NCBI GenBank assembly: GCA_027623235.1
Contig: JAQBVJ010000025.1
Span: 1 to 64,000, forward strand
Direction of reading: 5' to 3'
Length of the DNA stretch: 64,000 nucleotides
Source of the DNA: Planctomycetota bacterium
GTDB lineage: Bacteria > Planctomycetota > Planctomycetia > Planctomycetales > Planctomycetaceae
Shown: piece by piece, positions 34,190 through 63,992 of the stretch
How the letters are laid out: every line of letters starts with the position of its first letter
How positions within the stretch are numbered: the first letter of the stretch is position 1
Program-made: the position numbers and the translations under genes
Notes under the pieces: model-generated
What the model was told of the DNA's origin: nothing
The model's input: only the letters and a program-made list of their open reading frames with translations
Databases searched by the model: none

Positions 34190-34277
34190 GTAGGACGGAC
34201 GCCCACGTCCGTCCGTCCGTCTGTTTGTCCGTCTGTCTACTGCCGGTGACTCGAACGGACGTGGGCGTCCGTTCTAC
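34190..34277. repeat. Inverted repeat, TAGGACGGACGCCCACGTCC family, copy 1
   Basis: Arms 34190-34213 and 34253-34277 are imperfect inverted copies around about 40 bp that contain GTCCGTCCGTCCGTC runs. A second copy with a perfect 25-bp inverted repeat lies at 62248-62333. It falls between two genes of the export locus and could form a transcript hairpin. Confidence 0.85.
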
Positions 34278-62247: not shown

Positions 62248-62333
62248 CGTAGGACGGACGCCCACGTCCGTCCGTCGAGCATTTGTTCAAAAACCAGGCA
62301 AGAGCGCTGACGGACGTGGGCGTCCGTCCTACG
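62248..62333. repeat. Inverted repeat, TAGGACGGACGCCCACGTCC family, copy 2
   Basis: A perfect 25-bp inverted repeat (62248-62272 with 62309-62333) flanks 36 bp of unrelated sequence. The arms are the same as those at 34190-34277. It lies between convergent genes and could end both transcripts or be a MITE relic. Confidence 0.9.
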
Positions 62334-62348
62334 GCGCTTTGCGTGATT

Positions 62349-63992
62349 TCAGCGGGGCCGGGGACGCGTGCCGCCCTGCTGACCGAATCTTCGTTCGACG
62401 GCTTCCGCTTCTTTGCGATCGACGAAGCCGTCGCCGTTTGTGTCCATGCGGCTCATCCGTTCCCGCATCTGAGGCGGCAGTTCCTCGCGACTGAGCTTGC
62501 CGTCTTTGTCCCGGTCCATCTGCATCAAACGGTCTGCGGTGAATCCGCCGGGTGGGCGGTTCCCTTGAGGCGGCCCACCTTCGCCGGGCCGACCTGCTTC
62601 AGGTCGTCCTGCTTCGGGCCGTCCTCCGCGACTGCCACCGCGGCGGGGGTTGCCCGCGTCGCGATCCTGGGCGAGGTGCACGACGTAGGTCTGCGTGACG
62701 GGAATGCAGAAGCCCTGCTCGTCGTTGCAGGCAAAATACTTGACGGTCAGCTCGAACGATTTGCCGGAGTCCGCTTCGATGTCGACAAGGAATTCGCGCG
62801 GGTCGATGTCCGCCTCCACTTCGACTTTCGGGCCGGTGCCTTCACCGGGAGAAACCTGAACACCCTCCGCGCCGGCAATCTCAAACGTCAGCGGCTTCGC
62901 CTGGTTGTTCCAGTGGACGTGGTACAACGGGTCAAGGTGGAAGCCGAGGTACATTTTTCCTTCGCGGCCGCGCAGGACGTGCTGATCGACCTCAGCACGC
63001 AGCTTCACGTAAAACGGGTGCTGACCTTCCTGAGGCACGACGTGAAGTGCCTGCATCGAACCGGGCGTCTTGACCCGCTCGACGACTCCGCTGGCCGCCG
63101 GCTTCGGCGTGGTTTCGATTTTCAGATCGAGATCGCTGATCTGCGTCGGGTTCTCAACTTTCCCGACAAGCTTTTCCAGATCCGCTCGCAGTTCGCTCGG
63201 TCGGCTCCAATCGCGCATGACGGCAATGTTCCCGTCCGGGTCGATGACGAATTCTGAGTTCGGTCGATCTCCCAGAGCGTGTTTCAGATCGTTGTCCATC
63301 GTGTCGACCAGCCAGGGCACGGTCGCGCCCAGCGTTTTTTTCGCCTCGGCCACATGCATCAGTCGCTCCTGCAGATTGACCGGGCGGATGTAGCTGTTGC
63401 TGCCTCCCTCGGGATGAGCGAGCGATTTATAAACGAAGAACACCTTGACACCTTTGTCCGCGAAATCGCGATGGATCGTCTCCAGACCGGGGACGTTTCT
63501 GATGAAAGGCGGTCAGGTGAGGCAGCCGAAGACGAGCACCGTGTGGCTGCCTCGCAGGCTGCTCAGTGAAAATTCCTTGCCCTGGGCATCGTAGATTTTC
63601 ACGTCGGGAGCCGGTCCGCCAATCTTCAGTCCCGACCGTTCGAGCGTGCTGGCGCCGGAACTTCCGGGTCCGCCGCTGCGGGCCGAGCCGGCATCTCCAC
63701 CAGGTCCACCTCCACCGGGTCGCCGAGCAGGCTGGCCACCGAATCGGCTCATCATGAAAGCGCGGATTTCATCGCGGACGATTTCTCCGTCTTCGTTCTG
63801 GTCTAGCACTTTGAGCGTTTTCGCCGCGTCTTTCAGCTCGGCTGCCGAGAGTTCCCCATCACCGTTCTGGTCGAGGACCGACATCAGCGGCTCGGACGGG
63901 CGAGCACGACCGGGGCCAGGCTGTGCGAATACTGACAGCGGAAGGGCTGCCAGCACCGGAAGGGTCATCAGCACTCGGCGGGAAAATCGCAT
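62349..63992 (-). CDS. Iodothyronine deiodinase-like selenoprotein with DsbD-like and EF-hand domains
   Basis: Two frames (63992-63516 and 63512-62349) join through TGA at 63513-63515, giving 547 residues with Sec160. A signal peptide (1-24) precedes two EF-hands (D41-E52, D64-E75), then a redoxin domain with the C157-L-T-U160 motif followed by PPF, as at the deiodinase active site. VDTMDN (229-234) is also deiodinase-like. A DsbD-alpha-like domain with C422NDEQGFC429 follows, then two further EF-hands (about 493-528). A bSECIS-like hairpin lies 18 nt after the TGA (63477-63495). The start is ATG 63992, close to the window end. Likely a periplasmic redox enzyme; the deiodinase reaction is not implied. 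The alternative, a pseudogene with a nonsense change, fits the motif and hairpin poorly. Confidence 0.85.
63477..63495 (-). promoter_or_regulatory. Candidate bacterial SECIS hairpin
   Basis: On the minus strand CGTCCCC-GGTCT-GGAGACG folds into a stem of seven positions with one C-A mismatch and a GGUCU loop. GGUCU is the apical loop sequence of the E. coli fdhF SECIS. The loop starts 24 nt after the TGA at 63513-63515, in the normal range for bacterial SECIS elements. Confidence 0.7.

Follow-up and report, generated by a model that had tools for sequence, protein, structure and literature searches.

A probable planctomycete selenoprotein joining a deiodinase-like thioredoxin fold to a domain with a second cysteine pair

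Introduction

Is an in-frame TGA in a planctomycete gene read as selenocysteine (Sec) and, if so, what kind of redox protein would the gene encode? The gene in question lies in the window, the whole 64,000-nucleotide stretch of DNA that was analysed. A preliminary description of this stretch had proposed a selenoprotein with a CxxU active site in a deiodinase-like fold.

Knowledge of deiodinase-like selenoproteins in bacteria goes back to the Sargasso Sea study (PMC1088965), and two reviews, from 2022 and 2026, give the family with the motif UxxC (PMC13188914, PMC9312934). Sec use in planctomycetes is also known, from work on two of them (PMC4807772). In the papers and selenoprotein lists that we consulted, we came across neither the present family nor any fusion of a CxxU deiodinase-like domain with EF-hands and a second domain bearing a Cys pair.

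Results

Reading frame and homologues

On the minus strand, an ORF starts with ATG at 63992..63990 and runs to a first TGA at 63515..63513, beyond which the frame is open to the TGA at 62351..62349. The first of these is the sole internal TGA, codon 160 of 547, and the joined product reads VLVFGCLT-U-PPFIRNVPG, as proposed beforehand. The features concerned are:

62349..63992, minus strand: whole gene of the putative selenoprotein, 547 codons with Sec as codon 160 (frame open if TGA is Sec; 31 aligned TGA homologues)
63513..63515, minus strand: TGA codon 160, putative selenocysteine (open frame, homologues, co-occurrence with selA, Sec cassette in genome G433)
63477..63495, minus strand: putative SECIS hairpin with an apical GGUCU, at +18 to +36 from the UGA (compensatory changes and synonymous-codon control)

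Genome-wide reassignment of TGA was ruled out because TGA is also the terminator of this gene and the genome has a complete Sec system.

A 327-residue two-domain core was used to search 170 genomes of the same order (E<=1e-25). The family was found in 34 of them (one match partial), 28 with one internal TGA and six without, and in 49 of the 398 genomes of a class-wide sample. We aligned 31 TGA sequences, 30 from the order and one from outside it. All have the TGA at the same codon, within GCLTUPP. The TGA homologues, 39 when further loci are counted, share 50-73% protein identity, and conservation is strong downstream of the TGA. Five close orthologues have TGC or TGT at the Sec codon (GCLTCPH, GC[LM]TCPPS) and a more distant homologue has GCNTCQI at the motif; no residue other than U or C occupies position 160 in the aligned set. 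In a maximum-likelihood tree, whose bootstrap support is not fully settled and which has some long branches, the Cys forms do not group together but branch at several points, next to Sec clades or within them. This scatter, with three forced label changes, suggests repeated Sec-to-Cys replacement in the family.

In five loci (L044, L045, L047, L052, L110), the selenoprotein gene or its Cys orthologue has a deiodinase-like paralogue of the Cys type (GNFTCGPF or GCFSCGNY) a few kb away at most. The two proteins may act together, since their genes lie so close.

SECIS hairpin

The putative SECIS, the hairpin with a GGUCU loop that the preliminary description had placed 18 nt downstream, begins 17 nt past the UGA. 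By itself the window copy is inconspicuous: a single-sequence fold of the 72 nt after the UGA was not significant (z-score -0.27), an Rfam scan of the region returned nothing meaningful, and the stem contains one internal C/A mismatch that is common to about half of the family. Across homologues the picture is clearer. Over the 42 nt that follow the UGA, 31 sequences give a gapless alignment, in which columns 18-25 pair with 29-36. To the outermost pair, an Asn/Lys-type codon contributes its third base and a Thr/Ala codon its fourfold-degenerate third base; among the 39 sequences of the extended set, this pair was C-G in 24, G-C in seven, A-U in one, U-A in one and unpaired in six. Neither the covariation score nor the percentage paired was reached by any of 500 shuffles, and the true register exceeded all slid registers. 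Under synonymous recoding (1000 draws per gene), Sec genes had a mean energy z of -2.59, whereas that of Cys genes was +0.28. The sequences are related and do not count as independent trials in these statistics; the contrast between Sec and Cys genes is clear. Given this contrast, the comparison indicates that the hairpin is under selection beyond the protein sequence and is lost along with Sec: it was present wherever the site is U and gone in the Cys genes.

Sec machinery and linkage

The window's assembly (7.4 Mb, 94% complete) carries selA, selB and selD, all above curated cut-offs, and a tRNA-Sec with anticodon TCA (tRNA-Sec(UCA)), so the full set selA, selB, selC and selD expected of a working Sec system is present. 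The named relatives are planctomycete MAGs, several labelled Planctomycetaceae, in line with the host that had been named. In the 170 genomes of the order, TGA forms were confined to genomes with selA: selA was found in 28/28 genomes with a TGA homologue and in 42/142 others (Fisher P=3.2e-13, a value that overstates independence as the genomes are related). Three of the six genomes with a Cys form lacked selA.

A further line of evidence is the arrangement in G433, a planctomycete from outside the order that, by its taxonomic label, has only the phylum in common with the window's genome. On one strand and contiguously, it encodes selD (12649-11684), selB (11621-9660), selA (9730-8198) and selC (8182-8087), followed by a homologue of our gene that starts at about 7931 and has its TGA at 7685-7683. 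The selA, selB and selD genes were confirmed by NCBIfam equivalog models and selC by ARAGORN. Quite apart from the motif, this linkage argues strongly that the Sec machinery acts on the gene; seen in one lineage, it also suggests that the protein is valuable enough to help retain the Sec trait. The cassette and the selenoprotein gene together span L105:6690-12649 (G433:C9), a natural minimal Sec system.

Taken together, the sel genes of the genome, the conserved TGA with its Cys orthologues, the co-occurrence with selA, the selection on the hairpin and the G433 cassette bear out the earlier reading of the TGA, and the UGA at codon 160 is almost certainly decoded as Sec. That the TGA instead truly ends translation, or arose by sequencing error or as a lesion in a pseudogene, so that the product is a 159-residue fragment, can practically be dismissed: conventional gene calling would indeed give two ORFs (159 and 364 aa) and the window's hairpin is not significant alone, but this reading is refuted by the conservation of the same TGA, and of the sequence after it, in 31 aligned homologues (39 with further loci), by the way the TGA tracks selA and by the adjoining complete cassette in G433. 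Annotation would split the gene into two fragments with no relation to each other, so this planctomycete selenoprotein family is easily overlooked.

A separate observation concerns selC. A tyrosine-recombinase-like integrase ORF (L009:1501-2918, G000:C23) ends against the tRNA-Sec gene of the window's genome, as if an integrated element had used selC as its attachment site.

Protein architecture

Reading through codon 160 gives a protein with the following parts:

63924..63992, minus strand: signal-peptide-like N-terminus MRFSRRVLMTLPVLAALPLSVFA, judged by reading the sequence
63750..63881, minus strand: N-terminal EF-hand pair, residues 38-81 (Pfam EF-hand families above cut-off; motif scan)
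63171..63626, minus strand: thioredoxin-fold, deiodinase/AhpC-TSA-like domain, residues 123-274 (Pfam, NCBIfam deiodinase_rel, Dio3 profile match, model, fold search)
63522..63524, minus strand: Cys157, the -3 partner of Sec in CxxU (invariant, 35/35)
62664..63089, minus strand: C-terminal beta-sandwich domain, probably nDsbD-like, residues 302-443 (PF11412 in 17/35, profile comparison, confident all-beta model)
62706..62729, minus strand: putative second redox pair, Cys422 and Cys429 (both invariant, 35/35)
62388..62534, minus strand: C-terminal EF-hand pair, residues 487-535 (Pfam EF-hand; motif scan)

The protein is predicted to be exported, and its EF-hands are predicted to bind Ca2+.

The best-scoring Pfam families of the thioredoxin domain were AhpC-TSA and Redoxin. 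T4_deiodinase (PF00837) gave 26.8 bits for the whole protein and 28.1 bits for the core, around its gathering cut-off of 27, and all 35 aligned members matched AhpC-TSA, Redoxin and T4_deiodinase. The NCBIfam model NF038285 (deiodinase_rel) gave 66.7 bits, far under its curated 250-bit cut-off; all 35 members matched it at E<=1, none of the rest better than E 2.4e-18. No NCBIfam model covers the window protein at its cut-off. The best profile match in the PDB was mouse Dio3, in an alignment that covers the Sec motif as well as the AHP and DTMxN blocks; ResA came next. The AlphaFold model (pLDDT 89.8, pTM 0.85) matched DipZ C-terminal domains, ResA and mouse Dio2; in this fold search ResA and DipZ ranked above peroxiredoxins, which were also among the matches.

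The deiodinase-like character claimed in the preliminary description holds in part. The thioredoxin-like fold is related to deiodinases, and the VDTMDN block aligns with mouse Dio3 in the expected order; however, the model of the bacterial deiodinase family stays below its cut-off and AhpC-TSA/Redoxin score best. Likewise, CLTUPPF was said to mirror the deiodinase SCTUPPF, and CxxU and PPF do align, but the Cys is at -3 here and at -2 there. All 31 Sec members have GCLTUPPF with Cys at -3 of Sec; none of them has the deiodinase-type SCTUPPF. The description was right that both sides of the TGA belong to one thioredoxin-like domain and missed the C-terminal beta-sandwich with its second invariant Cys pair as well as the EF-hands, and it is these C-terminal and EF-hand segments that bear most on function.

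Across the 35 aligned sequences, invariance extends to the Cys at -3, to the Sec/Cys site (U/C exchange aside) and to two Cys of the C-terminal domain. Cys157, Sec160, Cys422 and Cys429 are the only redox residues of the window protein, with no further Cys in its mature form. The C-terminal part scored 22.3 bits against PF11412, the N-terminal domain of DsbD (cut-off 25), and 25.2 bits with neighbours; 17 of the 35 members matched at E<=0.1. In profile comparison the Cys pair was in register with the pairs of DsbDs, at hhalign probabilities of only 33-44%. The model of the domain is a confident all-beta sandwich. A fold search of the isolated domain against the PDB gave no clear relative, with no nDsbD chain in the top 50, and a profile search against PDB sequences gave no match. 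With weak sequence scores and a fold search that does not confirm them, the domain is probably nDsbD-like.

DsbD as a possible partner

The window's genome has a single DsbD_TM gene (L074:223-2715, G000:C132). It encodes a DsbD with two N-terminal Cys-pair segments and has an in-frame TGA of its own (L074:2404-2406) exactly where the gamma-domain CxxC would have its first Cys (VDFTADW-U-ATC), after which the thioredoxin domain continues in frame. Four more genomes of the order (L097-L100) show this replacement in their DsbDs, and in three of these a GGCGGUCGCC-type (GGUC-loop) hairpin folds downstream at SECIS distance. No canonical SECIS was seen in the window genome's own DsbD, and the closest DsbD relatives have Cys. 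The window genome's DsbD is likely a Sec protein.

Discussion

We propose that the gene encodes a thiol/selenol reductase with a two-pair relay, a reading to which we give a probability of roughly 0.6. On the comparative evidence, SelB with Sec-tRNA(Sec) almost certainly reads UGA codon 160 as Sec, directed by the SECIS hairpin 18-36 nt downstream. The steps after Sec insertion are all ones that we infer. Sec160, in its deiodinase-like thioredoxin fold, would attack an extracytoplasmic substrate (perhaps a disulfide, peroxide, sulfoxide or halogenated compound), and Cys157 would then resolve the Sec as a selenenylsulfide. Re-reduction of the selenenylsulfide would fall to Cys422 and Cys429 in the C-terminal, probably nDsbD-like, domain, a pair that could in turn receive electrons from the membrane reductase DsbD. 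The flanking EF-hands may bind Ca2+ for stability or anchoring.

That the mature protein has just four redox residues suggests an exported CxxU reductase fed by DsbD. DsbD as electron donor follows from domain logic and is a plausible candidate to which we give somewhat less than even odds. Many genomes with the selenoprotein had no close match in our DsbD search, so other donors must serve part of the family unless the search overlooked DsbDs that are more distant. Still more tentative, and in our view somewhat unlikely, is a selenium-based extracytoplasmic reductive chain of planctomycetes in which a DsbD with a gamma-domain UxxC passes electrons to the Sec-thioredoxin/Cys-pair protein, with some lineages keeping the whole Sec cassette and the protein together.

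Among the alternatives, a peroxiredoxin-like Sec peroxidase fares best. Sec160 would then reduce peroxides, its selenenic acid would be resolved by Cys157 and thiols, and the C-terminal domain would merely have a structural or substrate-binding role. The leading Pfam families and the peroxiredoxins among the fold matches agree with such an enzyme, but the nearest profile match is Dio3 and then ResA, both ResA and DipZ outrank peroxiredoxins by fold, and the C-terminal Cys pair is invariant even in the Cys forms; we therefore consider a peroxidase unlikely. Less probable again is a Sec reductive dehalogenase or deiodinase acting on halogenated organics of sea water or algal matter. Its attraction is that, among solved structures, the thioredoxin domain is by profile most like deiodinases, down to the AHP and DTMxN blocks of Dio3. 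The position of the Cys at -3 and the score under the bacterial deiodinase-family cut-off speak against it; moreover, deiodinase-like folds are related to general thiol oxidoreductases, as in the ResA match, and the gene offers no substrate context, since no conserved neighbours that hint at a substrate were seen by eye in five flanks. Deiodination activity is not supported by anything found here.

Like the bacterial deiodinase-like family, the protein has a putative Sec in a T4_deiodinase-type thioredoxin fold, a TUPPF-like motif, a bacterial SECIS and both Sec and Cys forms; it differs in its CxxU (Cys at -3), its EF-hands and an added C-terminal domain that brings a second, likewise invariant, pair of Cys. 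Animal iodothyronine deiodinases (PF00837; PDB 4tr3, 9h48) match it by profile in the Sec motif and in the AHP and DTMxN blocks, and the fold match to Dio2 reaches TM 0.77 by target length. Unlike these, it has Cys at -3 rather than -2, is bacterial, is predicted to be exported and has extra domains, and there is no reason to expect thyroid hormone as a substrate.

The best fold matches in the PDB are ResA/TlpA-type oxidoreductases and the C-terminal domains of M. tuberculosis DipZ (2hyx), which also joins a thioredoxin domain to a beta-sandwich domain. The window protein has CxxU and PPF instead of their CxxC and no attached membrane CcdA part, and its whole domain arrangement is not superposable on DipZ (TM about 0.4). 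The C-terminal domain scores close to the PF11412 cut-off and its Cys pair is in register with those of DsbDs, but the spacing is C-x6-C or C-x5-C as against C-x4-C in planctomycete DsbDs, the transmembrane part is lacking and the beta-sandwich is attached to a Sec thioredoxin domain. TsoB, a rhodanese/DsbD fusion-like selenoprotein (NF045694), likewise combines a thioredoxin-like redox part with a DsbD-related part (PMC13188914); the window protein has no match to NF045694, and the genome's DsbD scores 163.9 of 805 bits, far under the cut-off. By joining a deiodinase-like Sec site to a second redox-pair domain, the protein would allow the route of electrons to such a selenocysteine to be tested within a single bacterial polypeptide, from a family that is widespread in planctomycetes.

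Three other genomes of the order (G043, G110 and G082; loci L055, L057 and L058) encode a separate, more classical deiodinase-like selenoprotein with GSYTUPPF and no Cys at -3. It has its own CGUCGCCAGUCUGGCGAC-type hairpin after the UGA and looks closer to the bacterial deiodinase-like family. A further locus, L059, has FTUGPF.

Two observations were made in the vicinity of the gene. Directly upstream on the same strand, just past the window, a secreted-looking, EF-hand, Gly/Arg/Pro-rich protein is encoded (L073:4158-6238, G000:C248), preceded by a 316-aa ORF that looks ThuA-type by eye. An interspersed inverted repeat with 24-bp arms GTAGGACGGACGCCCACGTCCGTC occurs in two copies in the window (62249-62332 and 34190-34277). 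The copy at 62249-62332 sits between the convergent ends of an SDR gene and the selenoprotein gene and resembles a small palindromic repeat element or terminator.
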